NCBI GenBank assembly: GCA_903904835.1
Contig: CAIVEI010000070.1
Span: forward strand, 1 to 64,000
Origin: an uncultured Schlesneria sp.
GTDB lineage: Bacteria; Planctomycetota; Planctomycetia; Planctomycetales; Planctomycetaceae
Length of the DNA: 64,000 nt
Direction of reading: 5' to 3'
Shown in pieces: positions 416 to 52,678 of the stretch (position 1 is the first letter of the stretch; the number at the start of each line of letters is the position of its first letter). A model generated the notes under the pieces. It saw only the letters and a program-made list of their open reading frames with translations, was not told the origin of the DNA and searched no databases. The position numbers were made by a program, and so were the translations under genes.

Positions 416-499
<84 letters not shown>

Positions 500-610: not shown

Positions 611-1846
611 ATGGCCGGTCTTCAGCATCGAAACGGCAGTTACCGCATTCTTTTTCGCTACCAAGGCAAGCAGCATACGCTGACTCTCGGTGCGGTCACG
701 GAAGATGAAGCCGGGACCAAAGCAGCCCAGGTCGACTACCTTCTGATGCGGTTGAAACAGAAGCTGGCTGTACTTCCGCCGGGCATCGAAATTGTCGAGT
801 TCGTGCAGATGGACGGTCGTGTCCTGCCGCCCGCCTCGCCAGAAATTCAAAAGATCAATCTCACGGCTCTTCGCGACCAATATGTCGCGGCCCATCGAGC
901 TTCCCTAGAACCCAATACGCTCAAATGCATCCAGATTCATTTCCGGCATTTGGAAAAGCATTTCGGTGCTGCGTTTTGCATTTCCGATTTGCAACTCTCC
1001 GATCTTCAGGGGTACGTCAATCACCGTGCGAAGGCTGCTGGTCGCAACGGACGAAAACTGTCCACTGTTACCATTCAGAAGGAATTGGTAACGCTTTCCA
1101 CCGTCTGGAACTGGGGAGCGAAGATGAAACTCGTCGTCGGACCGTTCCCCAACGACGGCTTACGGTATCCGAAGACAACGGAGAAACCGGCATTCCAGAC
1201 ACGAGAAGAAATCAATCGTCGTGTCGCCGCAGGCGGTCTGACCGACGCCGAAAAGGCCGAGATGTGGGAATCGCTCTATTTGACAACCAAGGAGATTGAG
1301 AAACTCCTGAAATACGTCAAATCAAATGCCAGCAAATCATTCATCTATCCGATGCTGGTGTTCGCGGCACATACGGGGGCACGCCGGTCGGAAATCGTCC
1401 GCACACGCATCGCCGATTTGGATTTTGACGGGAAGAATGTCGTCATCCACGAAAAGAAGCGGGTTCGCGCCAAAACGACTACCCGGCGAGTACCTTTGTC
1501 GGCCTTTCTCATTGGAGTCCTGAAAAAGTGGCTTCAATCCCATCCCGGTGGCCTATACCTCTTCTCGATGGAAAACATGGTCGAACAAGGCAAAGCACAG
1601 GCGAGGCCAATAACGCTGGATGAAGCCCACATTCAACTCAAGCGAACCCTCGCCGACAGCGAATGGAAAGAGATCAAGGGCTGGCACTGCTTCAGACACA
1701 GCTTCGTCTCGGCGTGTGCGAGTCGTGGCGTCGATCAACGGCTGGTGCAGGCTTGGGCGGGACATATGTCGCCAGAAATGAGCAAGCGGTACGCTCACCT
1801 CTACCCAAGCACCCAGGCCGAAGCGATTGCTCGCGTTTTTGGCTGA
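611..1846 (+). CDS. int: Tyrosine recombinase/integrase of element A
   Basis: This 411-residue site-specific recombinase should integrate and excise element A at tRNA-Leu. The N-terminal half (about 80-200) is a SAM-like core-binding domain and the C-terminal catalytic domain carries R258 (TGARRSE), H359-x-x-R362 (HCFRHS), H385 (AGHMS) and nucleophile Y394 (KRYAHL). The ATG is preceded by TAGGAG at a good distance. The gene starts 111 bases from the tRNA 3' end and points into the element. It is clearly different in length and sequence from the element B integrase, although both use the same target. The catalytic set is complete, so it should be active. Confidence 0.93.
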   Translation: MAGLQHRNGSYRILFRYQGKQHTLTLGAVTEDEAGTKAAQVDYLLMRLKQKLAVLPPGIEIVEFVQMDGRVLPPASPEIQKINLTALRDQYVAAHRASLEPNTLKCIQIHFRHLEKHFGAAFCISDLQLSDLQGYVNHRAKAAGRNGRKLSTVTIQKELVTLSTVWNWGAKMKLVVGPFPNDGLRYPKTTEKPAFQTREEINRRVAAGGLTDAEKAEMWESLYLTTKEIEKLLKYVKSNASKSFIYPMLVFAAHTGARRSEIVRTRIADLDFDGKNVVIHEKKRVRAKTTTRRVPLSAFLIGVLKKWLQSHPGGLYLFSMENMVEQGKAQARPITLDEAHIQLKRTLADSEWKEIKGWHCFRHSFVSACASRGVDQRLVQAWAGHMSPEMSKRYAHLYPSTQAEAIARVFG

Positions 1847-28679: not shown

Positions 28680-28709
28680 TTGACATGTCTATCACCAAGA
28701 GATAGACAT
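28680..28709 (+). promoter_or_regulatory. Promoter and palindromic operator of the defence operon
   Basis: A perfect -35 hexamer TTGACA lies at 28680-28685 with a weak -10 (TAGACA, 28703-28708) 17 bases on. The palindrome ATGTCTATC-N7-GATAGACAT (28685-28709) fills the space between them and covers the -10. A protein bound there would block RNA polymerase. The small HTH protein encoded immediately downstream is the obvious candidate repressor. Confidence 0.7.
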
Positions 28710-28735: not shown

Positions 28736-29026
28736 ATGCCATTTGAGCGTTCCCAAGAGATCGAACGCCGACTGGACGAAGTTCTCCGCCTGATTAGTAC
28801 CGGGCGGTTTTCTACGCCCAAGTTGGCCGAAGAAGTCGGCGTCTCGATCCCAACGATTTCCCGGTGCGTCACGGCACTCCGGGAAAGGGGCCACGACATC
28901 GAAGCGAAGCGAACGAGCGAGGGTTGGCGGTATGTTTTGAAAGTTGGCGCAACTTCGAAGGGGCAATCCAGTGCCCCGAAGCACAACACGGACACAAGCA
29001 AAAGAGCAGGTAGCCATGATAACTGA
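28736..29026 (+). CDS. Small HTH_11-type regulator heading the defence operon
   Basis: A 96-residue protein with a DeoR/BirA-like winged helix at about 8-65: RLDEVLRLISTGRFSTPKLAEE, then VSIPTISRCVTALRERGHDIE and SEGWRYVL. AGGAG precedes its ATG. It overlaps the start of the SNF2 helicase gene by 11 bases, so the two are translationally coupled. The 9-bp palindrome in the promoter upstream suggests autorepression of the entire 16-kb operon, as expected for a potentially toxic restriction system. Regulation by a ligand or by phage infection is speculation. Confidence 0.8.
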   Translation: MPFERSQEIERRLDEVLRLISTGRFSTPKLAEEVGVSIPTISRCVTALRERGHDIEAKRTSEGWRYVLKVGATSKGQSSAPKHNTDTSKRAGSHDN

Positions 29027-31901
29027 CTACCACGCTAAATATTTTGCACACGATCTTACCCGGCGCGGGGTTGCTGGGTTGGACCGTTTGTCGATGTCGC
29101 TGTTTGATGCTGCGGTCGATCTCAACCCGCATCAGATTGAAGCGGCTCTCTTCGCCCTTCAGTCGCCACTTTCCAAGGGGGTGATCCTTGCCGACGAAGT
29201 CGGTCTCGGAAAGACCATTGAGGCGGGCATCGTTCTCTGCCAATCTTGGGCGGAGCGAAAGCGGCGGTTGATCGTCATTTCACCTGCTTCCATCCGCAAG
29301 CAGTGGGCACTGGAGCTTGAAGAGAAATTCAATCTACCGGCTGTTGTGTTTGATGCGAAGGCATATCGCGACATTCAACGGCAGGGGCGAGCACCGCTTT
29401 CCGAGAAGGCGGTCATCGTCATGTCGTTCAATTTCGCGAACAAGATTCGCGATGAACTTAAGGCCGTCTCATGGGATCTGGTTGTCATTGATGAGGCGCA
29501 CAAACTCCGCAATGCTTACCGCCCGAGCAACAAAGTCGGCCAGGGGATTCGGTGGGCGACCGAAGATTGCCGAAAGCTGCTGCTGACAGCAACGCCGCTT
29601 CAGAATTCGCTGATGGAACTCTACGGCCTCTCGACCCTCATCGACGAGCACCTCTTCGGTGACGTCAATTCCTTCCGGGCACAGTACGCAAGCGCTGGGG
29701 CTAACCTCGACTCGCTTCGCCAGCGGCTTTCGACGTTCTGCAAACGCACGCTTCGTAATCAGGTCACTGAGTACATTCGTTATACCGAGCGTCGCCCAAT
29801 TACTCGGCCATTCAAGCCAACCGACGACGAACATGCCCTGTACGAGGCAGTCTCAGCCTTCTTGCAACGCGAGAACAGTTACGCTCTTCCGCAGCGGCAA
29901 CGTCACCTGACTGCCCTGATTCTCCGCAAGTTGCTTGCATCGTCTTCCCAGGCGATCGCAGCAACACTGGATCGTCTTCGGATACGGCTGGAGACTCTTC
30001 GAGACCAGCAGGCGGTCAGCGACCTCGAATTCACCGAGGCGCTGATCGAAGGCGAGGAGATCGAGGATGACCTGCTCGACGAAATCCTCAACGAAGACTC
30101 AGAGCCGGAAGGGGACAAGCCGGTTGTCTCCACAATCGACCGTGAGAGACTGAAGGAAGAGATCGAAGTCTTGGGCCGTCTTGCCAAGTGGGCACACGGT
30201 ATCGGCATCGACACCAAGACCCGCACTTTGCTAAAGGCACTGGAACTCGGTTTCGAGACGTTGACATCCATTGGAGCTACCCGCAAGGCGATCATCTTCA
30301 CTGAATCACGTCGCACGCAGGATCATCTGAAGGCATTTCTGGAGGCCAACGGCTATGGGGGTCAGGTCGTGCTTTTCAACGGCACAAATAGTGGCCCAGA
30401 AGCCACAGCGATCTATGAGCGATGGGCGGAAGCAAACCGGGCGACCGGGCGAGCGACTGGCTCGCGTGCCGTGGATGTGCGAACTGCCCTGATCGAACAT
30501 TTCCGGGACAGTGCCTCAATTCTTCTGGCGACCGAGGCTGCATCCGAGGGGGTGAATTTGCAATTCTGCTCACTCGTTGTGAATTATGACCTTCCGTGGA
30601 ATCCACAGCGAATTGAACAGCGGATCGGCCGTTGCCATCGCTACGGCCAAAAGCACGACGTTGTCGTCATCAATTTTCTAAACGAACGCAATGCGGCCGA
30701 TCAACGCGTTCTCGAATTACTCGCCGAAAAATTCAAGCTTTTTAACGGTGTCTTCGGTGCATCGGACGAAGTGCTCGGATCAATTGAGTCTGGGGTGGAT
30801 TTCGAGAAGCGCATTCTGGCGATCTACCAACAATGCAGAACTCCCGCTGAGATCGACGCCGCCTTCAGCAAATTGCAGGAGGAAATGGACGAGCAAATCC
30901 GCACGCGACTGGATGACACACGGCGATCACTGCTTGAACATTTTGATGAAGATGTCCATGAGCGTCTGCGGATCAAGCTTGCCGATACCAAGGCACAGCT
31001 CGACCGGGTCAGCAAACGGTTCTGGGCGGTGACGCGGTTTATCCTCGATGGCAAAGCACGGTTCGACGATAACGCTCTGGCGTTCGAACTCGACCGTCCG
31101 CCCTGTGACGGTATCGCCGCCGGTTGCTATCACTTGATTTCAAAGACTCATCCCCAGGCCAGCTCCGACACCATCGATGATTCTGGACAATTCCTTTACC
31201 GGCTATCGTCTCCGCTCGGCGAACATGTGATCGACAACGCGAAGGTGATAGAGACACCGATTGCGCAAGTCATCTTCAACGTCAGCGGCCATCCTGCCCG
31301 CTTGCACGTAGTCGAGACCCTTCGGGGCAAAAGTGGCCATCTCACGCTCACTCGCCAAGTCATTGACTCGTTCGAGACTGAGGAATATTTGCTCTTCTCA
31401 GGGTTCGACGATGAAGGGCATTCGCTCGATCAGGAGACAATCGAAAAACTCTTTCAATGCGCCGGGCGGGTTGCACCAAACAGTGGTATCCCAAATAACC
31501 TCGCAGAGAGATTGACCGGGGAATCCAAACGCCACGCCGAAGCAACGGTGAGCCGTTCGCTTGAAGCCAATAGCCGACACTTTCAAGAGGCGCGTGAGAA
31601 GTTGGAGCGTTGGGCTGACGACATGGTCATTGCCGCAGAAAAGGCACTTCGGGATACCAAAGAGAAAATCAAAGTCATGCAACGTGAGGCGAGACAAGCG
31701 GCCACGCTCCCCGATCAACATCGCATTCAGGAAGAGATTCAGAAGTTGGAAAAGGTTAAACGGCGACAAAGACAGGACATCTTCAAGGTTGAAGACGAGA
31801 TCATCGACAAACGAGACGCACTGATTGACTCACTTGAGAAACGACTGGCACAACGGACTAACATCGAAACACTTTTCACCATCCGCTGGTCAGTTGAATA
31901 A
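29016..31901 (+). CDS. SNF2-like (DrmD-like) helicase/translocase
   Basis: A 961-residue superfamily 2 ATPase of the SNF2/RapA type. Motif I is DEVGLGKT (60-67), motif II DEAH (159-162), motif III LLLTATPLQN, motif V LLATEAASEGVNLQF and motif VI QRIGRCHRYGQ (from 535). After the helicase core lies a long C-terminal region with coiled coil (about 840-950). The ATG at 29016 lies inside the end of the HTH gene. Similar helicases occur as DrmD in class 1 DISARM and beside RM systems, where translocation on DNA is thought to assist recognition or degradation. Here it is followed by Mod- and Res-like genes. Confidence 0.9.
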   Translation: MITDYHAKYFAHDLTRRGVAGLDRLSMSLFDAAVDLNPHQIEAALFALQSPLSKGVILADEVGLGKTIEAGIVLCQSWAERKRRLIVISPASIRKQWALELEEKFNLPAVVFDAKAYRDIQRQGRAPLSEKAVIVMSFNFANKIRDELKAVSWDLVVIDEAHKLRNAYRPSNKVGQGIRWATEDCRKLLLTATPLQNSLMELYGLSTLIDEHLFGDVNSFRAQYASAGANLDSLRQRLSTFCKRTLRNQVTEYIRYTERRPITRPFKPTDDEHALYEAVSAFLQRENSYALPQRQRHLTALILRKLLASSSQAIAATLDRLRIRLETLRDQQAVSDLEFTEALIEGEEIEDDLLDEILNEDSEPEGDKPVVSTIDRERLKEEIEVLGRLAKWAHGIGIDTKTRTLLKALELGFETLTSIGATRKAIIFTESRRTQDHLKAFLEANGYGGQVVLFNGTNSGPEATAIYERWAEANRATGRATGSRAVDVRTALIEHFRDSASILLATEAASEGVNLQFCSLVVNYDLPWNPQRIEQRIGRCHRYGQKHDVVVINFLNERNAADQRVLELLAEKFKLFNGVFGASDEVLGSIESGVDFEKRILAIYQQCRTPAEIDAAFSKLQEEMDEQIRTRLDDTRRSLLEHFDEDVHERLRIKLADTKAQLDRVSKRFWAVTRFILDGKARFDDNALAFELDRPPCDGIAAGCYHLISKTHPQASSDTIDDSGQFLYRLSSPLGEHVIDNAKVIETPIAQVIFNVSGHPARLHVVETLRGKSGHLTLTRQVIDSFETEEYLLFSGFDDEGHSLDQETIEKLFQCAGRVAPNSGIPNNLAERLTGESKRHAEATVSRSLEANSRHFQEAREKLERWADDMVIAAEKALRDTKEKIKVMQREARQAATLPDQHRIQEEIQKLEKVKRRQRQDIFKVEDEIIDKRDALIDSLEKRLAQRTNIETLFTIRWSVE

Positions 31902-31940
31902 CGACCTGCTGAGAATAACAACGAGGGAACGGAAACACTG

Positions 31941-34900
31941 ATGAGCCAGAAATTCGAAAAACTGAAATCACTGCTGAAAGAGCTTTTCCAGCTCGACCAG
32001 CCAGACCTTGATTTCGGCCTATACCGCATAATGCACGCCAAAGCAGCCGAGGTTAGCCAGTTCCTTGACCACGACCTACTTCCGCAGGTCAAAGAGGAGT
32101 TCAGCCAGTACAAGACAGCCGACAAGGCGGAGATTGAGAAGGAGCTGGCGAAGGTTATCGCTGGAATCCAAACGGGTGGAATGGACCCCGAGCAGTCACC
32201 CAAGGTCAAAGACCTGCGGGCCAAGCTCGCGGGCGATGCCGTGGACATCGCATCGCTGGAATCCGAGGTGTATGACCACCTCTTCGGGTTCTTCCGCCGC
32301 TACTACTCGGAAGGTGATTTTCTTTCCAAGCGAGTCTACAAGCCTGGCGTCTATGCCATTCCCTACGAAGGCGAAGAGGTCAAGCTGCACTGGGCCAACG
32401 CGGACCAGTATTACATCAAGACCAGCGAATACCTGCGGGACTATGCCTTCCGGTTGCGACCGGAAGATTCCGCCAAACCGATGCGGGTCCATTTTCGCCT
32501 CGTTGATGCCGCTGAAGGTGAGCATGGCAATGTGAAGCCAGCCGAGGGAAAAGACCGTGTCTTCATCTTGGCGACGACCGATTTCATCGCTGAGGAAGAT
32601 GGGGAACAAGGCCGCGAATTGGTGATCCGTTTTGAGTACCGTCCAGCGACGTTGACCGACTGGCCGGAAAGTGTCCGCGACGGCAAGAAGAAACCACCGG
32701 CACAGAAAGACATGACTGCGCTCGCTGAAACACGGATCGCTGCTATTGATGAGAAAGCGCTTTTGAAGTGGGTCGAGGAGCTGGAAAAGTCTCACATCAA
32801 GTCAGACGGTGAGCAGGCCGAGTATTCACGGCTTCATGCTCACCTCAACCGCTACGTTGGCCGTAACACGTTCGACTATTTCATTCACAAGGATCTTGGA
32901 GCATTCCTACGCCGCGAACTCGACTTCTACATCAAGAATGAGGTGATGCACCTCGATGACGTTGAGAACGAGACAGCGGCGCGAGTTGAGCAATACCTGT
33001 CGAAAGTGAGGATCATCCGCCGCATTGCAGGCAAGGTCATTACTTTCCTCGCCCAACTGGAGGACTTCCAGAAGAAGCTGTGGTTGAAAAAGAAGTTCGT
33101 CATCGAGACCAGCTATTGCATCACGCTGGACAGGGTTCCTGAACGCTTTTATGCGGAAATCGCAGCAAACCAGGCACAGCGCGAAGAATGGGTGCGACTG
33201 TTTGCGATCGACGAAATCAAGACGACAAGTGACGACAAAGATCCATCACTCTTTCCTGAAGCACCGGTGGCCTATTCGGTCCCGCTCTCGACAGACTTCA
33301 TCAAAGCACACACAGCATTACCTTTAGACACTAGGTTCTTTTCACATACATTCACTGCGAGTCTGCTTGACGCGGCGAACGTCAGCGACCAGACCACAGA
33401 TGGTCTACTGGTACATGGCGACAACTTCCAGGGATTGCAGTTACTCGCCTCACGCTTCGGTGGACAGATTCGCTGCATCTATATCGATCCACCCTACAAC
33501 ACCGCAAGTAGCTCGATTCCGTACAAGAATGATTATCGCCATTCTTCATTCGCCTCGATGATCTATGACCGAATCCAGGGGCTGCATCACCTTGTGAGCA
33601 ACGACGGTGCGATCTTCGTCAGCATCGACAAGACGGAACGAACAGTTCTTGAGCACGTTCTCGATGACATCTTCGGCGTCGATAACCGGATCGAGGAACT
33701 CATCTGGGCGATGAATACAAACAACAGCCAAGCCCCGAACTACTCCACCAATCACGAGTATGTTTTGGTCTATGCCAAACATAGACCAACGGCGGAGCAG
33801 GATCGGAATATGTTTCGCGATCCTAAGCCTGGTTATGAAGAGGTCATGGAGTTGGTTACGGGACTTAACAAAGAGTTTCCTGCAATCGCTGCAATTGAGC
33901 AGGCCATCAAGAAACTCTATGAACAGCACAAGATTGAGTTTCGTGAGGAGTTGGAGGCACAAGGGCTTGAGTGGGAGGACGAAAAGGGTAACGATCCTTG
34001 GAAGGGTTTGTACAATTATTCACACGCCGAATACCGTGATGAAAATGGGAAACTTGTCCCTGAATCGAAGGCCAAAGCACAGCTAGCACGAATCTGGGTT
34101 TGGCGAGAAGACAACATCTCAATGCCTGCAACAAAACAGGCTGCGAGTACGCGAGACCCAAGCCACAAGAATTATCGCTTCTACCGTCCGCCGCATCCAA
34201 AAACTGGGCGTCAGTGTCCACATCCGAAGAGCGGTTGGAAGTTCGCATACGATGACGATGAAGATTCGCCAGATAAGAGGAGCTTTGTCGCACTTGATCG
34301 CGATGGACGAATCGTTTGGGGCCAAGATGAGACAAAGCAACCTCAACTCAAGCGTATGCTTCACGAAGTAGAAACAAACGTCGGCAAGAGTGTGTTCTCC
34401 GACTATTCGGATGGAGAGAAGCAAACGTCGGCGATGTTTGGCCAGTCGGGCTTGTTTCTAGCCCCGAAGCACGCGGACTTCGTCTCACGGTTTGTCCTGC
34501 ATGCGGCAAAACCTGACAGTACGATTCTTGACTGTTTCGGCGGTTCAGGAAGCACGGCTCATGCGGTGATCAAGCTCAACCGCGCTGATCGCGGCCAGCG
34601 GAAGTTCATCCTGATCGAAATGGCCGAATACTTTGATCGCGTACTCAAACCTCGCGTGTTGAAAGCAATCTATTCGCCGGATTGGCGATCCGGGAAGCCC
34701 ATCTCTCGTAAGGGTATCAGTCAATGCCTCAAAGTGATTCGTCTCGAATCGTATGAGGACGCTCTCAACAACCTGTTGCTGCGCCGATCTTCGTCGCAGC
34801 AATCTCTGCTTGATGCTGCCGAAGCCAAAGGCACCGACCGTCTGCGAGAACAGTACTTCCTACGGTACATGCTCAACGTCGAAACAGAAGGCAGTTCGTC

Positions 34901-35423
34901 GCTTCTCAACGTGCAGGCATTCACCGACCCAACAAGCTACCTGCTTAAAGTGAAACGCCCCGGCTCCGACGAAAGCCGCGACATCAAGGTTGATTTGCTG
35001 GAGACGTTTAACTGGCTGATTGGCCTAACGGTTCAGCAGATTGCCGCCCCGCAGTGCTTCACCGCAAAGTTCGAACGTGACAGTGAGAAACGCCTACAAC
35101 TCAAGGGGCGATTGAAGCAGGATGACTCGGGGGCTTATTGGTTTCGCACCGTCACTGGCACGACACCCGATGGCCGGAAGACACTTGTCATCTGGCGAAA
35201 ACGACCCGGCGGTGAAACGCACGAGGCCGTCGAGCAAGACAATCTCGTGCTCGACGAATGGTTCACTCGCCAGGGTTATTCCAGCAAGGACAGCGAGTTC
35301 GACCTGATCTACGTTAATGGCACGAACAATCTCGAAAACCTCCGAGCACCGGACGACACCTGGAAGGTCCGTTTGATCGAAGACGACTTCCACCGGCTCA
35401 TGTTCGTAGCGGAGGGTCTATAA
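31941..35423 (+). CDS. mod: Long Type III Mod-like N6-adenine DNA methyltransferase
   Basis: A 1160-residue adenine methyltransferase of the beta arrangement. Motif IV is DPPYNT (516-521) in [12 protein letters not shown], and the AdoMet motif I is DCFGGSGST (from 864) in the C-terminal half. The order IV before I and the context match Type III Mod subunits, but those are usually 600-700 residues. The extra 480-residue N-terminus ([32 protein letters not shown]) has no recognised catalytic motif. It should modify host DNA and provide target recognition. Its stop overlaps the start of the Res gene (TAATG), implying a stoichiometric complex. Confidence 0.9.
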
Positions 35424-38400
35424 TGGCGAAAAAAGCAGCCCGCCGCGTAGAGGCGGCGACAGAACCCGCTGCGGCATCACGGCGACGAGCGATCAAAAAG
35501 CCCCAGGTGCCGTTCCCCTACAAACTGATTCTCAATCAGTGGCTGTTGTCGTTGTTCAACGTCGAACGGCTGGAGAAGCTTGCGGAACACTTGAAAAACG
35601 AAGCCTTGGAGGGACTGGATGAAAACAATGTCCATCGGTTCCATCACGCTCTGACTGCCCAACTCTTCAACCTGACGGAGCTTCCGACAGAGTTACTGCT
35701 CGAATACGACCAGAACATTGTTCGGCATACGCTTCGCCTCAATGAGCGCCGGATTACGAAGGGCGACGATCCGATTGTCTGGAAATATTTCCAGTACCTT
35801 TCGCTACTCTTCGCGGAAATCTACCTGGACCACTATTTCCGTGACCCAACGGACCTCCGAAAGGCACTTAACAGCCAGGTCGAGGCATACAACGCCGACA
35901 AGCCGGAAGCGGACCAGATCGCCAAACTAGACGAGACCGCTGAAGCATGGCCGCAGCTCAACAAGCTGGCTTTCTGGATGGCGACTGGCAGCGGCAAGAC
36001 ATTACTTATGCACGCCAATATCCTGCAATTCCAGCATTATCTCCAAAAGCGCGGCAGGTCACGGGAGCTGAATCGCATTCTGCTTCTGACACCGAACGAG
36101 GGCCTGAGTCAACAGCATCTGCGTGAGTTTGAGGCAGCAGGCATCGAGGCAGAGCTGTTCGACAAGAACTCTGCTTCCAAGTCATCTCAGCAGTCACTGC
36201 CGTTTGATGGTCGAGGCGTCTCCACGCTGCCGTTGGTGGAAATCATCGAGGTCACGCGGCTGCGCGACGAGATGGGCGATAAGACAGTCGCCATTGATGC
36301 ATTCGAAGGGAATAATCTGGTTCTTGTCGATGAGGGACATCGTGGGGCCAGCGGGGGCGAAGACGGTGCATGGATGAAGGCACGCAATGCCTTGTGCGAG
36401 AAAGGCTTTTCCTTCGAGTATTCGGCAACCTTCCAACAGGCGGTCGCAGGTAATGTCAAACTGTCAGACCAGTATGCCAAGAACATCCTCTTCAATTACT
36501 CCTACCGCTATTTCTATGGAGACGGGTTCGGCAAGGACTACCAGATCCTCAACTTGGACGAAGGAACGCAGGACAGCCACCTTGAGCTGTATCTGGTGGC
36601 CTGCCTGCTGACTTTCTTCCAGCAGCAGCGGCTTCACCGAGAGCATGGGACGGCATTTCGCCCATTTAATATCGAGAAACCGCTTTGGATTTTCGTTGGT
36701 GGCAGCGTCACGAAGACACTCGCCAGCCGGGACGCATCAGACATCATCGAAATTTTGAAGTTTCTTGGACGGTACGTTGCTAATCGTACCGAAAGCGTCG
36801 CCAGAATTGATCGTGTCCTGAACCAAGGTTTAGTCACCGCCACCGGTAAGAATCTCTTCGCCGGGCGGTTTTCGTACCTCAATACGATCGGACTGACCCC
36901 GGTACAAATTTTTGATGAGACCCTTTCGACGCTTTTCAATGCCCCAGGCGGCGGACAACTTTACGTCGAGAATCTCAAAGGAGCCACCGGGGAAGTGGCG
37001 CTTCGCCTTGGTGCCGACAACAAAGCCTTCGGAGTCATCAACGTCGGGGACGACGCGAAATTAGTCGCACTGTGTGAGGAGCACGGCATTGCAACGGCCA
37101 CACCCGAGTTTTCCGGCTCGCTGTTCCACGAAATCAATAATCCTGACTCCACCGTTAACGTGCTGATCGGATCGAAGAAATTCACCGAAGGCTGGAGCAG
37201 TTGGCGAGTCAGCACTATGGGGTTGATGAACGTTGGGCGTGGCGAGGGAGCGCAGATCATTCAGCTTTTCGGTCGTGGCGTTCGGCTCAAAGGCTATGAC
37301 GTGAGCCTCAAACGTAGTGGCAAGACCCAGCTTCCCGAGGGCGTCGAACGCCCCCGCCATATCACGACACTGGAAACCCTGAACATTTTCGGCATTCATG
37401 CCGACTACATGGCCGAATTCCGCAAGCATTTGGAGGAAGAAGGTCTTCCAACCAACGATGACCGCAAGGAATTCCTGATGCCAGTCATCAAGAATCTGGG
37501 CACGCAGCCCCTCAAGATGATCCGGCTGAAGAAGACCATCAATGGCGTTAGCACCGAATTCGGCGACGCATTCCGAAGGCTTGGCCCGATTCCGACAGTG
37601 GAAAAACCCGACGCAGTCCGGGATAAGGCGAGCGTGTACCTCCAGAACAACAAAGTAGTGTTGAACTGGTATCCGAAGATCAAGGCGATCAAGTCGGTTG
37701 GGGTCGTGGGTGGCGACGGCGAGGAAAGGCCAAACCAAGCCCATCTCGGCGCGGCACATGTCGCCTTTCTAAATTTGGACCGGCTGTACTTCGAGTTGGA
37801 ACGCTTCAAGGCCGAACGGGGATGGTACAACCTCAATCTCACGCGAAACGGCTTTCGCGATCTGCTTGCCGACCAAAGTTGGTATGAACTCCTAATTCCG
37901 GCGGAAGAGTTGGCATTCGACTCGTTTGAGAAGGTCGCTTTGTGGCAAGAGATTGCGCTGGCCCTGCTCCGGAAATACACGGAACGATACTACACCTTCC
38001 GCAAGAGGGAATGGGAACTGCCTCACCTGGAATACCAAGACCTTTCACCAACTGATCCGAACCTACTCGGGAACGGCGAAGCGTCTGGTGATCCGTACTA
38101 CCGAATCCTCATCGACCAATCACAGGATGAGATCGTTGCCAAACTCGAAGAACTTAAGGCATTGATCGAACGGGAAGATTTCAAGCCTTGGGAATTCCGC
38201 ACACTCAAGGCCATTTGGTTTGGGCGTCACCTGTACCAGCCGCTCCTGTACCTTCAAGAGAAGATCGTCGAAATCAGCCCTGTACCGCTCAACAAAGGCG
38301 AGCGTCAATTCGTCGAAGACCTGAAAACCTTTCACGACGGCGATGGCGGGTTCTTCAAGGGCAAGGAACTCTACCTGCTTCGTAATCTCAGCAAGGGGCG

Positions 38401-38743
38401 CGGCGTTGGATTCTTCGAGGCGGGCAATTTCCACCCCGATTTCATCTTGTGGCTGCTCATGGACGGGAAACAGCACATCATATTTGTGGACCCGAAAGGC
38501 ATCCGAAACGTCGGTGTCACCGACCCGAAGATTCACTTCTACGAAACTATCAAGGAGATCGAGGTTCGCCTCGCGGACTCAGACGTCCACTTGCACTCCT
38601 TCATTGTCTCGGGTACGCCCTCGCACACTATGCGACTACTATGGGGCACCGACAAATCACAGATGGCCGCTTGGCATATTGTCTTCCAGGAAGAAGACCG
38701 GGAAACCTACGTCCGTACAATGCTGGAACAAGCAACTTCGTAA
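35423..38743 (+). CDS. res: Type III restriction Res-like helicase-nuclease
   Basis: A 1106-residue superfamily 2 helicase fused to an endonuclease domain. Walker A is ATGSGKT (187-193), motif II DEGH in [12 protein letters not shown], and motifs V-VI lie in [16 protein letters not shown] and [11 protein letters not shown]. The C-terminal PD-(D/E)xK nuclease is seen in [16 protein letters not shown] (P1005, D1006) and FVDPKG (D1023, K1025). Type III Res cuts DNA after ATP-dependent communication between sites, in complex with Mod. Initiation overlaps the mod stop codon. All catalytic motifs look intact. Confidence 0.92.
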
Positions 38744-38769
38744 AACCTAAGTGAAAAGCGATAGCCCGA

Positions 38770-40935
38770 ATGAAACAATTGAACGTAGAATTGGAAAACT
38801 GCTATGGGATCAAACACCTTATGAGGCAGTTTGATTTCTCCACCAACAGGGCTTACGCCATTTATGCCCCCAACGGCGCGATGAAGTCGTCATTCGCGCA
38901 GACATTCAAGGATGTGGTTGACGGCACCCAATCTAAGGATCGCATATTTCCAGACCGGGTTTGCATCAGGAAGATAACCGACGAGAATGGAACTGATTTG
39001 CCAAAGGAAAGTATACTCGTTGTTTCGCCCTACGACGAGGTTTTTGGCCACACAGAGAAAACGTCGACCTTACTGGTGGACAACAAGCTGCGAAAGGAAT
39101 ACGAGCAACTCCACACCGATATTGATATCGCAGAGGACGCATTTCTAAGGGCTCTAAAGGAGCAGTCCGGTTCAAAGAAGAACCTAAAAAGCGAGATTTC
39201 CTCCACGTTCACCAAGAGTCAGGATGCCTTTTACCGTGCTCTGAATCGCGTTAAGGACGAGGTCCTGGCGCAGAAGGACGCTCCATATGCACAGATTCAA
39301 TACGACACGGTATTTGATGACAAAGTATTGGCATTTCTCGGCACAAAAGACTTCAAAACAGCGATTGAGGAATACGTCAAGAAATACAACGAATTGCTCG
39401 CTGCTTCTACATATTTCAAGAAGGGCACATTCAATTACTACAACGCAGCGACCATTGCAAAGAGCCTGGCGGAAAACGGATTCTTTGATGCCAAGCACAC
39501 GGTCAGTTTGAATGCACAGAACAACCTTGAAATTACCAGTCAGAAGCAACTAGAAGAACTAATTGCAAAGGAAAAGGAAGGGATAACCTCAGATAAGGAG
39601 CTGCGGAAGAAGTTCACTGAAATTGAAAAACTCATAACCAAAAATGCGAACGTGCGGGACTTCGAAGCCTATTTGGCGGAACACGAAGAGATTCTGCCGA
39701 AACTCGCGAACATCGAAGGGTTTAAGGAAGATATCTGGAAATCGTACTTCAAGGTACGACTCGATCTCTATAAAGATCTGCTTGAAAAACACCAAGCGGC
39801 CGAGAAGAGAAAGAAGGAAATCGAAGAAGAGGCTGGAAAGCAGCGGACGCAGTGGGAGGCAGTAATTGAGATTTTCAACGACCGCTTTTTCGTTCCATTT
39901 AAATTGACCGCGAAGAATCGCACGTCTGTGATCTTGGGTGAGGAGCCGATGCTTGTCCTGGGATTTACTTTCGAGGACGGAGCGGACAAGGCACCGGTTG
40001 ATAAAGCGACGTTGATGGAAGCCCTCAGTACGGGTGAAAAGAAAGCGCTTTATGTGCTGAACATCATTTTTGAAGTCGAAGCTCGTAAAAAGGCCAAAAC
40101 GGAAACGGTTTTCATTGTTGACGACATCGCAGACTCGTTTGACTATCGAAACAAATACGCGATTATCCAGTATTTACAGGATATTTCAGAAGAGCCGCAG
40201 TTCAAGCAAATCATTCTGACGCACAATTTCGACTTCTTCCGGACTGTAAACAGTCGGTTCGTGAACTATTCGAGTTGCCTCATGGCTTTCAAGAACAGCA
40301 CGGGGCTTATGTTGAGTCAGGCTGCCGGGATCAAGAATGTCTTCGTGAATGATTGGAAGCCAAATTTCTTTACCGACGCCAAAAAACGTATTGCCTCCAT
40401 CCCGTTCATCCGCAACATCATTGAATACACCAAGGGTGAAGGAGATCCGGATTTTGTCAAGTTGACATCGTTACTGCACTGGAAGGCAGATTCGGCGGGA
40501 ATCACACAATCAGAACTTGACGCAATCTACAATGCTGTTTTTGGTGGTACAGGAGTGTCAGCCAATAGCACTGGCCTAGTAATCGATTTAGTCACACACG
40601 AAGCGGCAGAGTGCATCAATGCCGTTGACGGGATTAATTTTGAGAACAAAATCGTTCTTGCAATCGCCACGCGAATCGCTGCCGAACAGTTCATGGTCGG
40701 CAGAATCAATGACCCTGCGTTTGCCTCTAAAATTACGTCCAATCAAACTCAAGCGTTACTGGCAAAGTTCAAAAAGGTTTTTCCAGGGTCAACAGATGCC
40801 ATTCAGATACTACAGCGGGTAGTACTCATGACGCCGGAGAATATTCACCTAAATTCATTCATGTACGAGCCAATATTAGATATGTCAGACGAGCACCTAA
40901 GAAAGCTTTATCAGGACGTATGCGCATTAGCATGA
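38770..40935 (+). CDS. SMC/ABC-type AAA_13-like ATPase
   Basis: A 721-residue ATPase with head halves at both ends and a helical middle. The Walker A region is APNGAMKSS (33-41), lacking the first and last glycines of the usual G-x-N-G-x-GKS loop. The signature is LSTGEKKAL (419-427), Walker B VFIVDDIADSFD (D451, D452) and the H-loop LTHNFDFF has H485. The architecture resembles the AAA_13 group to which PrrC and RloC belong, but I see no HEPN or other nuclease motif in the C-terminal 230 residues. It lies 26 bases after the Res gene and is probably a further subunit of the system. Confidence 0.85.
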   Translation: MKQLNVELENCYGIKHLMRQFDFSTNRAYAIYAPNGAMKSSFAQTFKDVVDGTQSKDRIFPDRVCIRKITDENGTDLPKESILVVSPYDEVFGHTEKTSTLLVDNKLRKEYEQLHTDIDIAEDAFLRALKEQSGSKKNLKSEISSTFTKSQDAFYRALNRVKDEVLAQKDAPYAQIQYDTVFDDKVLAFLGTKDFKTAIEEYVKKYNELLAASTYFKKGTFNYYNAATIAKSLAENGFFDAKHTVSLNAQNNLEITSQKQLEELIAKEKEGITSDKELRKKFTEIEKLITKNANVRDFEAYLAEHEEILPKLANIEGFKEDIWKSYFKVRLDLYKDLLEKHQAAEKRKKEIEEEAGKQRTQWEAVIEIFNDRFFVPFKLTAKNRTSVILGEEPMLVLGFTFEDGADKAPVDKATLMEALSTGEKKALYVLNIIFEVEARKKAKTETVFIVDDIADSFDYRNKYAIIQYLQDISEEPQFKQIILTHNFDFFRTVNSRFVNYSSCLMAFKNSTGLMLSQAAGIKNVFVNDWKPNFFTDAKKRIASIPFIRNIIEYTKGEGDPDFVKLTSLLHWKADSAGITQSELDAIYNAVFGGTGVSANSTGLVIDLVTHEAAECINAVDGINFENKIVLAIATRIAAEQFMVGRINDPAFASKITSNQTQALLAKFKKVFPGSTDAIQILQRVVLMTPENIHLNSFMYEPILDMSDEHLRKLYQDVCALA

Positions 40936-40980
40936 TCTGTTTTTCCGCGAATTCGCGATATTCCTAGAGAGCCACAGCGC

Positions 40981-41823
40981 ATGCCCAAGATGTCTGATCC
41001 GTTATTCGCCGACGCCACTCTTGACACCGCACAACTCCACGCGCTGTTTCAAATAACTCACAATACTCCATTTCTGCGACTGGCCATATCTTCTGAAAAT
41101 GCAGAAACGCTGAAACAGTCATTAGGCATTCCAATTCGTCGTTGTTATATAACGGATGACTTACTTCACCAGCGCGCCAAGGAACTCTCCCTGTCATTGA
41201 ATGACGTTCTGGCCACGAAACTGCCCGATGCTGGTTCTACTATGTCGGGCGATTTTGGCGAGATACTTACGTATCTGTATCACCTGGGTACACAGAACCA
41301 GCAAGCTGCCTTTGGCCCGAAGAAATGGCGGCTTAAGCAGGACCGCACCAAGCCAGCCCCGTATTCGGATGTGGTGCATTTTCTGCTTCCATCATGGCCA
41401 TCTTCAACTGATCAAGATGAACTCCTTTGCTCTGAAGTCAAGACAAAGGCAACCGACGGAGCATCACTGCCAATATCGAATGCCATCTCGGACAGCCAGA
41501 AGGACGCTACCAGTCGGCTTGCAAGGACGCTCGTCTGGCTACGCGAGAGGGCGATAAGCGATGGGTTGGAGGATGTATCACTAGATCATTTGGATCGATT
41601 CATCAATGCAATCGACCACCCGTCTTTCAAGAAAAGTTTCTATGCCGTTGCAGTGATTTGTGGTGACCTTGTTGAAAGCGAAATCATCGCCGATCCTCCA
41701 TTGCTCGTTAAGGGTCACACGCTGTTACTGATTGTCGTTCCCAAACTCAAGGATGTTTACACTGCTGCGTTTGAATCTGCCAAAACGTCCGTTGCGTCTG
41801 AAGCCGAAGAGGGATTGGCATGA
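40981..41823 (+). CDS. hamA: HamA (DUF1837) nuclease of a Hachiman system
   Basis: A 280-residue protein of the HamA/DUF1837 family. The PD-(D/E)xK-like core is visible as E94 in GDFGEILTYLYH, D130 in PYSDVVHF and E152-x-K154 in CSEVKTKA. In Hachiman, HamA is the effector nuclease held inactive by HamB and released on aberrant DNA to degrade cellular and phage DNA. Its stop overlaps the hamB start (ATGA), as is usual. The gene follows the ATPase by 45 bases, so Hachiman is probably co-transcribed with the Type III-like genes. Confidence 0.9.
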   Translation: MPKMSDPLFADATLDTAQLHALFQITHNTPFLRLAISSENAETLKQSLGIPIRRCYITDDLLHQRAKELSLSLNDVLATKLPDAGSTMSGDFGEILTYLYHLGTQNQQAAFGPKKWRLKQDRTKPAPYSDVVHFLLPSWPSSTDQDELLCSEVKTKATDGASLPISNAISDSQKDATSRLARTLVWLRERAISDGLEDVSLDHLDRFINAIDHPSFKKSFYAVAVICGDLVESEIIADPPLLVKGHTLLLIVVPKLKDVYTAAFESAKTSVASEAEEGLA

Positions 41824-44813
41824 GGGACTCTCTTGCTCGTTGGATAAGCGATGCAGATGCGTTGCGACACCTCGAACATTTCCGCAGTAAGGAAATACCA
41901 CTTTCGTTGGCGCCTCTTCGCTCGCGCGCAGACGACTATTATCTCTCATTGGTCGGAGAGTTATTCGACCGCATGAAGAATGATTATTCGGACAAAACAG
42001 ATTGGGCAACTTTAGGTAATGCGCTCGTTCAGTTCGCCGAACGAGATGCCCGTAGCCTTGCAACCGCCGGTGTTAACGCGGAAGAGGCTCGACTTTTTGC
42101 ATCGGCTGCGTTTTACAATGGTGGATATCCAGCTTCGGCTTACCTCACAATGAGACCCGCCACGATTATTGCAAATAGCGAGGCGTATCGGTCGTGTTTT
42201 GACTTTCTCGCGAGACCAGCTTCCCTTACTTCTGAAAGCGTTCGCTCACTGATCGATGCGGTAGGTCGTGGAGATCAGGCCCGCGTTGAGCAAATCGTAT
42301 CTACAATTTCGAATCAAGTTACGGTCAGCCTAGCCGAAGGGCCGACTGAATGGATTCCTCAGCGTCTTTTGGAGATCTTGGTCACTCGATTCAGTAACAC
42401 CAATCTTCGAGCCGTTCTGCCTGATGGCAATTCATCCTTCTGGACTCCGTTGGTTTCTTCGTTTCTCAATCAGCGACCACCAGCATGGGAGTTCTTTCCT
42501 TCACAGATTCAGGCAATCTCACAAGGGCTCTTGAGTCGTTTCGAAACTTTCTCGCTCCAGATGCCGACCGGGGCTGGGAAAACGGCTCTGTGCGAGACGC
42601 TTCTGTTCCACCATCTGATGTCAAACCAGGAAAATCTTGCAGTGTTTCTGGTTCCATATCGATCTCTTGCGTCGGAACTTCGTGGCACTCTGGTCAAACG
42701 ACTTAATAACATGGGGATTCTTTCTAGGACAGCCTACGGTGGAACTGTTCCAGTCGGAAATGAGTCCGGGATGTTGGACACGATTCGAGCGCTTGTGGCA
42801 ACGCCAGAGTCACTTTCTGGGCTTCTGAGCGCCAATCCGAGTTTCTTTCATCGCATCACATTAGTTGTCGTCGACGAAGGCCACCTACTTGATGGGGGAG
42901 CACGAGGGATATCTCTTGAATTGCTACTCGCACGAATGAAGACAAGGGAACCTGCGTCTCCGAGATTTGTTTTTTTATCTGCAATTGTTCCAAATATTGA
43001 GGAAATCAACGTATGGTTAGGCGGTACCACCGAGACTGTTGTTCGGAGCGACTACCGTCCAGCCGTAGCGGAGTTTTCACAACTAAAACCGGATGGCAAA
43101 GGAAGCAAGACCTCAGTTGCACTTGAAATGCATCCTCACAAGTCTGAACCGACACGATATCAAATCGAACGATTCCTCAGCAGAGACGATTTCACTTGGA
43201 TCAACCCAAAAACTGGAAAGGCAAATACCTACAAGTTTGAATCGATAAAGACGCAGGCTATTGCTGCCGCACGGAAAGCACTTTCAATGGGAGCCTCGGC
43301 AGTATTTGCAGCAAACAAGAGGGGAAACCAAGGCGCTATCGGCCTTGCTGAAGAACTTCTTTCTCAATTGGAGTTTCGCCTCTCCTTGCCAGAGCCGAAG
43401 GACTTTTCTGCATCGGCTCCGGTGGATCGTGCCTGGGTATACACAAGAGATGAGTATGGTCTTCAGTGGGTTGGCGCAAGAATGCTCGCGGTCGGTGCGG
43501 TGCTGCATCATGGTGACATTCCTCAAGAGACTCGCGAAGTAATTGAAAGCCTGCTCCGAAACAGGTTTTCAAAACTGGCAATCTGTACGAGCACGCTGGC
43601 TGAGGGTGTAAATCTTCCTATTAGAACCCTTGTGCTTTATTCGGTTATTCGTCGTGACAAGACCGGAGAGGCGACAACACTTCTTTCACGGGACATCAAG
43701 AACCTAGTTGGACGTGCTGGCCGTGCCGGAGCGACAACTAAGGGCCTTGTCATTTGCGCTAATGCAAACCAATGGTCCTCGATTGAGCCGGTTGCAGAGC
43801 AGGCTCTCGGCGAAAATGTTGAAGGCGCTCTTCGAGAACTCGTCTCGCGTATTCTGTCTTTTCTCGCAAGAGAGAAAGAAACGCTCACAAACGAGTTGCT
43901 TGAACGATTTACTGAACTCCACTCGTTAGTGGATGGTGTCGACTCGACGCTTATCGAATTGGCAGCCCAAGAGATTGGCGAAGATGCGTTATTGGAACTC
44001 GCGACTGCCATTGCTGACAAGACCTTCGCGTCAATGCAGTCCGAAGCCGAACCAAAACGCATCCTTCAAGAGGTATTCCAACTAAGAACTCGTCGGATCA
44101 TTGAACTGCGTTCATCAGGCCGCCTGGGATGGATTCGAGAAACAGGCGCAAGGACACGAATGGTAGACCAAGTTGAGAACGGCCTGCTACCTCGCTTGGC
44201 AACTTGGAGCGACATCACGGACCCGACAGATCCCGCGCTTGTCACCGCATTGGTTGATTGGGGGTGTTCACTTGCCGAAATGCAGAATGTCCTTCGTGAG
44301 GCATACCAGCTTGATGATGAGGTTGACACGGATAATCTTCGTGCGCCATTTCAATCTTTGGTCAATCTGTGGCTGTCCGGTAGTAGATTCGTGGAAATTG
44401 CCAATCAGCTTCGTCTTGACGTCGACGATGTACTTGGGATTCACGCGCGAGCGTTGTCGTACGCTTTTCAGACAATCGTCGAGCAAGGTATGGCAGTTCT
44501 TGCCAAGATTTTGGAATCAAGAGGGCAGCTTCTAGCGCCTGCGGCAATACTCTTTCCAGAACAACTACGATTCGGCGTTCCAACTCCTGCGGCACGCGTG
44601 CTCGCGGCGGAAGGTGTCCGGCATCGCCGTGCAGCCGTAATCCTTGGAACCCTTCCAGAGGTAATTGCCCTTGGTATTGAAAGTCGGCCTTTGATCTGCT
44701 CTACCGCCCGCCAGATCCTAATTGCTCAGGAAGATGTGTGGAAGCCGCGTTTAGGAGAATTGGTATTCGCTAATACCCTTCAAGACCTCAACGACATCAC
44801 TTCCAACTCATAG
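41820..44813 (+). CDS. hamB: HamB helicase of a Hachiman system
   Basis: A 997-residue Ski2-like superfamily 2 helicase. Motif I is MPTGAGKTAL (248-257), motif II DEGH (352-355), motif III FVFLSAIVPN, and motifs V-VI lie in TSTLAEGVNLPIRTLVL and NLVGRAGRAG. An N-terminal helical region of about 220 residues precedes the core, which fits HamB proteins that contact HamA and sense DNA ends. It overlaps hamA by 4 bases and is the last gene of the defence operon and of element A before its right att site. Confidence 0.92.
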   Translation: MRDSLARWISDADALRHLEHFRSKEIPLSLAPLRSRADDYYLSLVGELFDRMKNDYSDKTDWATLGNALVQFAERDARSLATAGVNAEEARLFASAAFYNGGYPASAYLTMRPATIIANSEAYRSCFDFLARPASLTSESVRSLIDAVGRGDQARVEQIVSTISNQVTVSLAEGPTEWIPQRLLEILVTRFSNTNLRAVLPDGNSSFWTPLVSSFLNQRPPAWEFFPSQIQAISQGLLSRFETFSLQMPTGAGKTALCETLLFHHLMSNQENLAVFLVPYRSLASELRGTLVKRLNNMGILSRTAYGGTVPVGNESGMLDTIRALVATPESLSGLLSANPSFFHRITLVVVDEGHLLDGGARGISLELLLARMKTREPASPRFVFLSAIVPNIEEINVWLGGTTETVVRSDYRPAVAEFSQLKPDGKGSKTSVALEMHPHKSEPTRYQIERFLSRDDFTWINPKTGKANTYKFESIKTQAIAAARKALSMGASAVFAANKRGNQGAIGLAEELLSQLEFRLSLPEPKDFSASAPVDRAWVYTRDEYGLQWVGARMLAVGAVLHHGDIPQETREVIESLLRNRFSKLAICTSTLAEGVNLPIRTLVLYSVIRRDKTGEATTLLSRDIKNLVGRAGRAGATTKGLVICANANQWSSIEPVAEQALGENVEGALRELVSRILSFLAREKETLTNELLERFTELHSLVDGVDSTLIELAAQEIGEDALLELATAIADKTFASMQSEAEPKRILQEVFQLRTRRIIELRSSGRLGWIRETGARTRMVDQVENGLLPRLATWSDITDPTDPALVTALVDWGCSLAEMQNVLREAYQLDDEVDTDNLRAPFQSLVNLWLSGSRFVEIANQLRLDVDDVLGIHARALSYAFQTIVEQGMAVLAKILESRGQLLAPAAILFPEQLRFGVPTPAARVLAAEGVRHRRAAVILGTLPEVIALGIESRPLICSTARQILIAQEDVWKPRLGELVFANTLQDLNDITSNS

Positions 44814-44992: not shown

Positions 44993-45048
44993 TAGGTTGA
45001 GGGCCTAGTGGTAGCAATACCGTGCAGGTTCGATTCCTGTCTTGGGCA
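44993..45048 (+). repeat. Internal att: tRNA 3'-end direct repeat, copy 2
   Basis: Fifty-six bases identical to 444-499 of tRNA-Leu. The tRNA 5' half is missing, so this is not a gene. It is both the right end of element A and the left end of element B, whose integrase starts 188 bases later. Confidence 0.93.
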
Positions 45049-45235: not shown

Positions 45236-46300
45236 ATGAAAAAACGTCTTCCGTCACTGACACGCCACAAGGCTACCGGACAAGCTCGTGTCTGGTACAA
45301 CGGCAAAGATCACTACCTTGGCGCGTACGGTTCACCGGAAAGCCGCATCCGTTACGCTGATCTGATCAAGGAAATCGCCACCGGACTACCCGTTGACCCG
45401 ATTGCCCAACGTGGCACCGACGACACCGGCCCGACGATCAACGAAATATCATCGGCGTTCGAAAAGTGGGCTGACGGCCACTATCGGAAAAACGGCAAAC
45501 GGACTGCCGAATACGATTGCGTCAAGTCGGCCATTACTCCACTGGTCCACCTGTTCGGCGACACTCCGGCAAAGTCATTCGGTCCCAAGTCCCTCAAAGC
45601 TGTTCGCCAGAAGATGCTGGACGGCGGGACATGGTGCAGGGAGTACATCAACAAGTCGGTCGGACGCATCCGGCGGCTATTCCGTTGGGCTGTTGAAAAT
45701 GAACTGGTCCCATCAACGGTACTTCTCGGTCTCGAAGCTGTGGCAGCATTACGCGAGGGTCATCCAGACGCCACGGATCACGCTCCACGGACTGCCATTA
45801 AGAAAGACATTCTGGACGCTGTCCGTGCAGCCGTAAGCCCGGAAACGCGCGATATGATCGATCTGGCGATTCTCACGGGCTGTCGTCCTGGCGAACTGGT
45901 TTCGCTCACATCTGAGATGATTGACCAATCCGACCCGACCGCATGGGTGGCAGTTTTGACCGACCACAAGATGAGGCACAAGGGGAAGCAACGGGCGCTC
46001 GTATTCGGATTACGCGGCCAAGAGATTCTGGCAAAGTACATGACCGGAAAGCCGTCTGCGAAATTGTTCCCGATTCAGAGGGCGACATTTTCCAATCGGT
46101 TGAAAAAGACCTGCGACGATTTGAAGTTGCCACGGTTTACGGGGCATTGGCTACGTCATTTGGCTGCGACCGAGATAAGGCAAGTCCACGGGCTTGATGG
46201 CGTACAGGCATCGCTTGGACATGCCAACGCGTCGATGAGCGATCACTACGCACACGTTGACTTGGAAAAAGCCAAAGCTGTTGCACGCGTTCGAGGTTGA
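45236..46300 (+). CDS. int: Tyrosine recombinase/integrase of element B
   Basis: A 354-residue integrase with a short N-terminal arm region (GQARVWYNGKDHYLGAYGSPES), a SAM-like core-binding domain (about 65-165) and the catalytic residues R217 (GCRPGELVSL), H304-x-x-R307 (HWLRHLAAT), H329 (LGHANA) and Y338 (HYAHVD). The beginning, which likens substrate-protein features (YGSPESRIRYADLI), is typical of many planctomycete integrases. GAAGGATC lies upstream of the ATG. It shares the tRNA-Leu target with the element A integrase but is a distant relative, so two independent lineages use this site. Confidence 0.92.
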   Translation: MKKRLPSLTRHKATGQARVWYNGKDHYLGAYGSPESRIRYADLIKEIATGLPVDPIAQRGTDDTGPTINEISSAFEKWADGHYRKNGKRTAEYDCVKSAITPLVHLFGDTPAKSFGPKSLKAVRQKMLDGGTWCREYINKSVGRIRRLFRWAVENELVPSTVLLGLEAVAALREGHPDATDHAPRTAIKKDILDAVRAAVSPETRDMIDLAILTGCRPGELVSLTSEMIDQSDPTAWVAVLTDHKMRHKGKQRALVFGLRGQEILAKYMTGKPSAKLFPIQRATFSNRLKKTCDDLKLPRFTGHWLRHLAATEIRQVHGLDGVQASLGHANASMSDHYAHVDLEKAKAVARVRG

Positions 46301-52626: not shown

Positions 52627-52678
52627 TTGAGGGCCTAGTGGTAGCAATACCGTGCAGGTTCGATTCCTGTCTTGGGCA
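52627..52678 (+). repeat. attR: tRNA 3'-end direct repeat, copy 3
   Basis: Fifty-two bases identical to 448-499 of tRNA-Leu, starting in the anticodon loop. This is the right boundary of element B and of the whole tandem array. The four bases TAGG present in the other two copies are absent here. Confidence 0.92.

Follow-up and report, generated by a model that had tools for sequence, protein, structure and literature searches.

A predicted SNF2-partnered Type III restriction-modification locus with two accessory defence modules in an uncultured Schlesneria sp.

The operon and the closest described systems

DISARM class 1 consists of DrmD, DrmMI, DrmA, DrmB and DrmC, and Type III restriction-modification systems such as EcoP15I and Mbo45V combine a beta-class Mod, in which a variable segment lies between DPPY and FxGxG, with an adjacent Res that carries a superfamily 2 (SF2) motor and a PD-(D/E)xK-like motif. 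Type III enzymes methylate a single strand of an asymmetric site and require two sites for cleavage. According to PMC12458937 and PMC12839542, ARMADA and the DUF499-centred BREX-related (Hma) systems are built on a SNF2 (RapA/BrxHII-like) helicase, a PglX-like adenine methyltransferase and a third ATP-driven component, a YprA helicase or a DUF499 ATPase. Here we describe a locus with features of each of these plans in an uncultured Schlesneria sp. (Planctomycetota), within a stretch of 64,000 nucleotides (the window; positions 1 to 64,000 of contig CAIVEI010000070.1, assembly GCA_903904835.1). According to the list of open reading frames (ORFs) of the window, positions 28736-44813 hold seven co-directional, tightly packed plus-strand ORFs. 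We read them, with a probability of roughly 0.7, as three defence modules in one row on an integrated mobile element, namely a SNF2-Mod-Res core, an ATPase and a Hachiman pair, so that the locus is a SNF2-partnered Type III restriction-modification system with two accessory modules. The genes are as follows.

28736..29026, plus strand: winged helix-turn-helix (HTH) regulator of 96 amino acids (Pfam HTH_11), predicted autorepressor
29016..31901, plus strand: SNF2 helicase, RapA/DrmD-like (PADLOC and NCBIfam matches), conserved upstream of Mod-Res; core
31941..35423, plus strand: Mod, long beta-class methyltransferase with a variable recognition segment at about residues 561-840 (MTase_III match, alignments); core
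35423..38743, plus strand: Res, SF2 motor with a PD-(D/E)xK-like nuclease motif (REase_III match, conserved residues); core
38770..40935, plus strand: SMC/ABC-type ATPase (PADLOC PDC-S46, neighbourhood comparisons); accessory module
40981..41823, plus strand: HamA nuclease of Hachiman (PADLOC/Pfam match, catalytic residues)
41820..44813, plus strand: HamB helicase of Hachiman (PADLOC/Pfam match, catalytic residues)

An earlier note on this DNA, made from the letters alone, had described seven plus-strand genes in which no overlap or gap between neighbours exceeds 45 bases, and the ORF coordinates bear this out: from HTH to HamB, the junctions are an overlap of 11 bases, a gap of 39, an overlap of 1, gaps of 26 and 45, and an overlap of 4. 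The start of SNF2 was taken as the ATG at 29016, where the ORF list gives a longer, TTG-started frame from 28944. The proposed gene identities also stood, as all seven proteins matched their own families above chance in profile searches (PADLOC, Pfam and NCBIfam). The HTH protein scored 29.7 bits against HTH_11 (cut-off 25), Mod 632 bits against MTase_III, Res 740 bits against REase_III, and HamA and HamB 313 and 1120 bits, respectively.

With DISARM class 1 the locus shares a RapA/DrmD-like SNF2 that neighbours a DNA methyltransferase and another DNA motor. The SNF2 protein is RapA-like, and its best matches in both PADLOC (645 bits) and NCBIfam were DrmD models; the same DrmD model was matched by 19 of the 19 SNF2 members scanned. 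These matches would fit a derived DISARM that had lost DrmA, DrmB and DrmC and taken in Mod and Res. We consider such an origin very improbable, since the PADLOC match is limited to the helicase part (residues 29-659), the scores against NCBIfam DrmD_b NF038318 (653 bits) and NF038317 (267 bits) lie below the cut-offs of 950 and 610, Mod has no DISARM methyltransferase match, and a Pfam scan of 27 window proteins detected no DUF1998 or phospholipase D protein. The last result agrees with the earlier statement that this is not a complete DISARM. In contrast to class 1, the scanned window proteins include none of DrmB/DrmC type, the methyltransferase belongs to another family, and Res takes the place of DrmAB. 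DISARM membership was rejected, as the window proteins scanned include neither DrmB/DrmC with DrmA nor a DrmD at cut-off level; Hma and BREX identities were rejected for missing parts as well (for Hma, no match to the DUF499 ATPase). Compared with ARMADA and Hma as outlined in the two papers, a Type III Res stands in for the YprA helicase or DUF499 ATPase as third component, and the methyltransferase is a Mod rather than PglX-like.

The SNF2-Mod-Res core

PADLOC labels both Mod and Res as Type III. In a sequence search of solved structures, Mod matched three Type III Mods, including those of EcoP15I and Mbo45V, and its variable recognition segment lies, as in these, between DPPY and FxGxG; D516-P517-P518 and F866, G868 and G870 were invariant in the 26 members aligned. 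Res combines SF2 helicase motifs with the PD-(D/E)xK-like nuclease motif, and residues G191-K192-T193, D303-E304-G305-H306, Q614, R618 and P1005-D1006 were invariant in 16 members, with D1023 in 15 of them and E in one. The proteins also differ from those of known Type III systems. Mod has 1160 amino acids with a conserved N-terminal part of ∼480, in contrast to 644 in the EcoP15I Mod chain, and the same search yielded no match for Res at an E value of 0.01.

The recognition segment of Mod is swapped as a cassette, judging from alignments of the 26 members. Mean pairwise identity was 60% in the N-terminal 400 residues, 48 to 49% in the motif parts and 58% in the C-terminal part, but dropped to 24% at residues 561-620 and to 20%, with 32% gaps, at residues 621-840. 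The window's segment (561-840) was 76% identical to that of an alphaproteobacterial locus and 77% identical to that of an archaeal (Methanomicrobiales) one (L110 3776-7213 and L079 6501-9923 compared with window 31941-35423; L numbers are our own locus labels). Identity to two further loci was 47% and 57%, and to the other 21 it ranged from 14 to 26%; with L075, the closest locus by Res among the best 80, it was 19%. This pattern indicates that the segment behaves as an exchangeable target recognition unit.

To define the core, 84,980 species genomes were scanned by Res alignment, which gave at least 566 relatives, and the best 80 were kept as core loci. Sequence of at least 6.5 kb upstream was available for 57 of these and of at least 2.5 kb downstream for 56. 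(L075, L107 and L140 duplicate L030, L033 and L039, and L116, L129 and L131 are near-identical; all are counted in the 80 and the 57.) Among the 57 loci, Mod was present on the same strand in 56 and SNF2 (>300 bits, same strand) in 43, with both gaps shorter than 300 bases in 22 of these 43. SNF2-bearing loci were spread over 14 named phyla in a Res tree of 53 rows (the 57 loci minus L107, L129, L131 and L133). The earlier note had asked whether SNF2 and the ATPase are conserved with this type of Mod/Res; for SNF2 this is the case, whereas the ATPase was found at none of the 56 loci with room downstream.

A plain Type III Mod/Res pair, with an unrelated SNF2 standing upstream by chance in defence islands, would account for the matches of Mod to EcoP15I, Mbo45V and the third solved Mod, and for the 14 of 57 loci that show no SNF2. 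It is nevertheless quite unlikely. Unlike a two-gene mod/res system, the locus has SNF2 before Mod, as have 43 of the 57 loci across the 14 phyla, in keeping with the earlier view that it is not plain Type III. SNF2 is itself well conserved (68% mean column identity, n = 19), and protein distances co-vary across triads. In 37 triads (the 43 minus L107, L129 and L131, which are split or near-identical, and L119, L125 and L140, in which a gene is broken or short), pairwise distances correlated with r values of 0.77 for SNF2/Res, 0.77 for Mod/Res and 0.57 for SNF2/Mod, and 0 of 2000 permutations gave values as high. In addition, a second Type III lineage, composed of an HKD-SNF2, a standard-length Mod and Res, has a SNF2 partner in 4 of the 9 loci looked at (L158 1-12567; L189 779-11123; L202; L203).

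Within the phylum, Res relatives were present in 25 of 392 genomes, the window's own included. Regions from 20 of the 24 others were examined, the other four being fragments, and 15 of the 20 had SNF2-Mod-Res in the same order. The five regions without SNF2 were L045 and L047, on short contigs, and L037, L048 and L049, with 4.9 to 6.2 kb before Mod; L056 had no usable gene calls in this comparison. An E. coli IncF plasmid also carries HTH-SNF2-Mod-Res (L161 5602-15354). Two of 5426 E. coli genomes have this version in near-complete form; of the 170 matching records, the 10 others listed contained no more than a stretch of 298 bases (query 8324-8621, 99.7% identical) that lies within the L161 Res.

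Between the first core gene and Res, 46 embedded ORFs of at least 120 amino acids were found, falling into 27 clusters, for which domains were called from one scanned member each. The largest cluster is Fic-like (12 loci); one matches HEC-01A, with a HEC-01B partner, in 4 loci, 3 of them near-identical, and one has a GmrSD domain (2 loci). Extra genes are thus a frequent addition to the core; in the window they stand at its end. L148 and L152, Mod-Res loci that lack SNF2, carry a DUF1828-type gene directly before Res (one of the two was scanned).

The ATPase and Hachiman modules

The ATPase matched the PADLOC model PDC-S46 with 940 bits over residues 1-720 of 721, i.e., over its full length. 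It contains Walker A, an LSxGE signature and Walker B, together with a His485 that is invariant in 6 members. Only one solved structure was matched in a sequence search, and weakly (E value of 0.005), and no DUF499 or HmaC model was matched in PADLOC or Pfam. PDC-S46 is a single-gene candidate in PADLOC (the S standing for single), in contrast to its position here and in two other loci, behind a SNF2-Mod-Res operon; an open-access literature search found nothing under that name.

Seen from its relatives, the ATPase is an optional add-on that recurs after SNF2-Mod-Res operons. It was seen in none of the 80 core loci, or of another set of 28 core loci. It occurred in 3 of 392 phylum genomes, of which only the window's also has Res, and in 3 of 385 genomes of the class of L081. 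Among 72,556 plasmid records, 27 contained it, 25 of them near-complete and two matching over 8% only; 12 of the 27 were examined for their neighbourhood, and none of the 27 coincided with the 25 plasmid records bearing a near-complete Res. At 23 of 26 ATPase loci (L155-L160 and L180 being left out as repeats or near copies of listed contigs), no Mod or Res was found nearby, some flanks being short and L179 having almost nothing upstream; in L188 there was a weak methyltransferase match 3.5 kb upstream of the ATPase.

These distributions bear on the possibility, raised in the earlier note, that HTH, SNF2, Mod, Res and ATPase form one distinct defence system, with the ATPase as effector or sensor. 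Tight spacing argues for it, as does the order SNF2-Mod-Res-ATPase in L158 and L189, where SNF2, Mod and Res are non-orthologous. Because the ATPase was seen in none of the 80 core loci (0 of the 56 with room downstream) or of the other 28, mostly occurs away from Mod/Res, differs in base composition and is listed by PADLOC as a candidate of its own, we regard a single five-gene system as unlikely. The order sought without HamAB in other genomes was not found at core loci, although L158 and L189 make the pattern a recurrent one. Of the alternatives of stacked systems or a five-gene system, stacking was thus the one retained, with three modules in place of a five-gene system plus Hachiman.

The last two genes are an ordinary Hachiman by sequence. 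HamA (DUF1837) has E94, D130, E152 and K154, i.e., the E, D and ExK residues of the family; HamB is a helicase with DEGH at residue 352; and the genes overlap by 4 bases, so that the complete, appended pair that had been proposed is confirmed. The sole difference from other Hachiman systems is its position as the last module behind a restriction operon. HamB relatives were present in 4 of 392 phylum genomes, and neither HamA nor HamB was seen at the 56 core loci that offer room downstream or at the other set of 28.

Spacing suggests that the seven genes form a single transcript, and no terminator-like site was found by sequence scan in the Res/ATPase or ATPase/HamA gap. In the whole region, terminator-like sites numbered 23 versus 19.2 in shuffled sequence and promoter-like sites 8 versus 10.1 (standard deviation of 3.0). 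The claim of one promoter was therefore not substantiated, as such sites occur at chance level. GC content at third codon positions (GC3) reached 0.61 to 0.66 for HTH, SNF2, Mod and Res, but 0.557 for the ATPase (overall GC of 0.458), 0.498 for HamA and 0.464 for HamB. Such a difference would be expected had the last three genes been acquired separately.

Several observations weigh against the reading as three modules built on a SNF2-dependent core. At 2 of the 26 ATPase loci, L158 (= L182, L198) and L189, a SNF2-Mod-Res operon that is not orthologous to the core has the ATPase immediately behind it, 122 and <20 bases after Res, respectively. The presence of the ATPase behind a triad of another lineage favours a functional tie over mere stacking, two cases being too few for measuring an excess over chance; L202 and L203, of the same HKD-SNF2 lineage, gave no ATPase match. 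Two promoter-like plus-strand sites within the ATPase gene (40139 and 40625) make a separate HamAB promoter possible. GC3 was 0.512 in another gene of the element (17361-19934), so base composition is supportive and not decisive. In Res, K1025 was present in 11 of 16 members and replaced by His in 5. Finally, no SNF2 was in the sequence seen at 14 of the 57 core loci, and placing the 13 SNF2-less rows on the Res tree requires 7 changes, of which no fewer than 6 are forced, so that SNF2 may be dispensable. The same 7 changes compare with a mean of 11.8 after shuffling (0 of 500 shuffles as low); absence that is clustered yet scattered fits repeated loss, without proving it.

Regulator, mobile element and proposed function

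Upstream of the HTH gene lies a predicted operator:

28686..28708, no strand assigned: perfect inverted repeat TGTCTATC-N7-GATAGACA, directly after a TTGACA box

The repeat ends 27 bases before the HTH start and recurs in L030 (= L075), where it has 13-bp arms and occupies the same position upstream of the HTH gene. It has a single exact copy in the 8.18-Mb assembly, where one more site differs by 2 mismatches, and among 163 loci it was found only in L030 and L075, which are one contig. With 3 mismatches allowed, a match turned up in 13 of 100 shuffled windows, which makes the repeat by itself evidence of modest weight. Judging from the families recognised there, the slot before SNF2 can be filled by several unrelated regulators, of which the HTH gene is one. 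The window's HTH family occurred in no other of the 80 core loci. By eye, a regulator was recognised before SNF2 in 9 of 42 SNF2 loci and none in the other 33. The families, from 10 proteins scanned, are HTH_11 (L075), Phd/YefM (L079, L083), WYL (L093), ribbon-helix-helix (L081, L139; L103 below cut-off) and Cro/C1-type HTH (L117; L109 marginal), the last also on the E. coli plasmid L161. The dedicated HTH regulator of the earlier note therefore likely has an operator of its own, but is not a conserved part of the system.

The operon lies at the end of an integrated element with the following borders.

416..499, plus strand: tRNA-Leu(gag), whose 3' 56 bp (444-499) form the left attachment repeat
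611..1846, plus strand: tyrosine integrase just inside the left element end (Pfam Phage_integrase)
44993..45048, plus strand: right attachment repeat, an exact 56-bp direct repeat of the tRNA-Leu 3' end (repeat comparison)

The right repeat starts 179 bases past the end of HamB. From the 56-bp repeats and the integrase genes at the borders, we read the operon as the last cargo of a tRNA-Leu element of ∼44.5 kb. A second integrase-bearing left border follows (integrase gene 45236-46300), and the tRNA-Leu 3' end is found again, with 52 of its 56 bases, at 52627-52678. A second element of 7.6 kb would thus lie in tandem, and both appear to use the same tRNA-Leu target. Elsewhere in the assembly, there is one repeat copy of 55 bases on another contig, and two weaker ones.

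The ∼44.5-kb element also encodes a type IV coupling protein, a TrwC relaxase, a second integrase gene, AbiE and ArdC (Pfam). The product of its AbiEii-type gene (21736-23178), which adjoins AbiEi, additionally has a C-terminal WYL domain, and the ArdC-type anti-restriction protein (24606-25508) shares the element with the restriction operon. A Fic-domain gene, of the kind that also makes up the largest cluster embedded in core operons elsewhere, is located past the second element (55054-55662). For defence systems stacked on tRNA-integrated elements, synergy has been tested and is possible, according to PMC12458937.

In the mechanism that we propose, the small HTH protein would act at the inverted repeat that overlies the promoter and so repress the operon. 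Mod would recognise its site through the variable segment and methylate it, presumably at adenine, to mark self, and Res, as a DNA motor with a PD-(D/E)xK-like nuclease, would cut DNA whose site is unmethylated. The RapA-like SNF2 would act as a second DNA translocase working with Mod and Res, most likely by clearing bound proteins from, or travelling along, target DNA, so that restriction is triggered. The SMC-like ATPase would be an optional accessory, which the window and two other loci have at the end of a SNF2-Mod-Res operon. According to PMC12278908, HamAB responds to DNA ends and damage. Hachiman would accordingly sense ends or damage and destroy DNA as a last resort and, standing behind an end-making enzyme, could serve as a back-up layer to Res.

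Among the papers listed by open-access literature searches, which left older surveys uncovered, none was seen to describe the SNF2-Mod-Res triad, and an earlier description is possible. Tentatively, and with somewhat less than even confidence, SNF2-Mod-Res may represent a widespread restriction-modification class of its own that needs a separate RapA-like translocase for cleavage. The SNF2 partnership would then have arisen at least twice (DrmD-like with a long Mod, HKD-SNF2 with a standard Mod), and the ATPase family, recruited to the ends of both, would be a functional partner rather than cargo alone. The core operon also occurs on E. coli plasmids, which makes the system testable.

The locus illustrates how a restriction operon carried by a mobile element can gain unrelated immune modules. 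If the SNF2 motor belongs to the restriction machine, a large group labelled Type III, with at least 566 Res relatives, would work by another mechanism, and SNF2-Mod-Res would follow the same plan as DISARM, ARMADA and the BREX-related systems, with a RapA-like motor, a DNA methyltransferase and a third motor.

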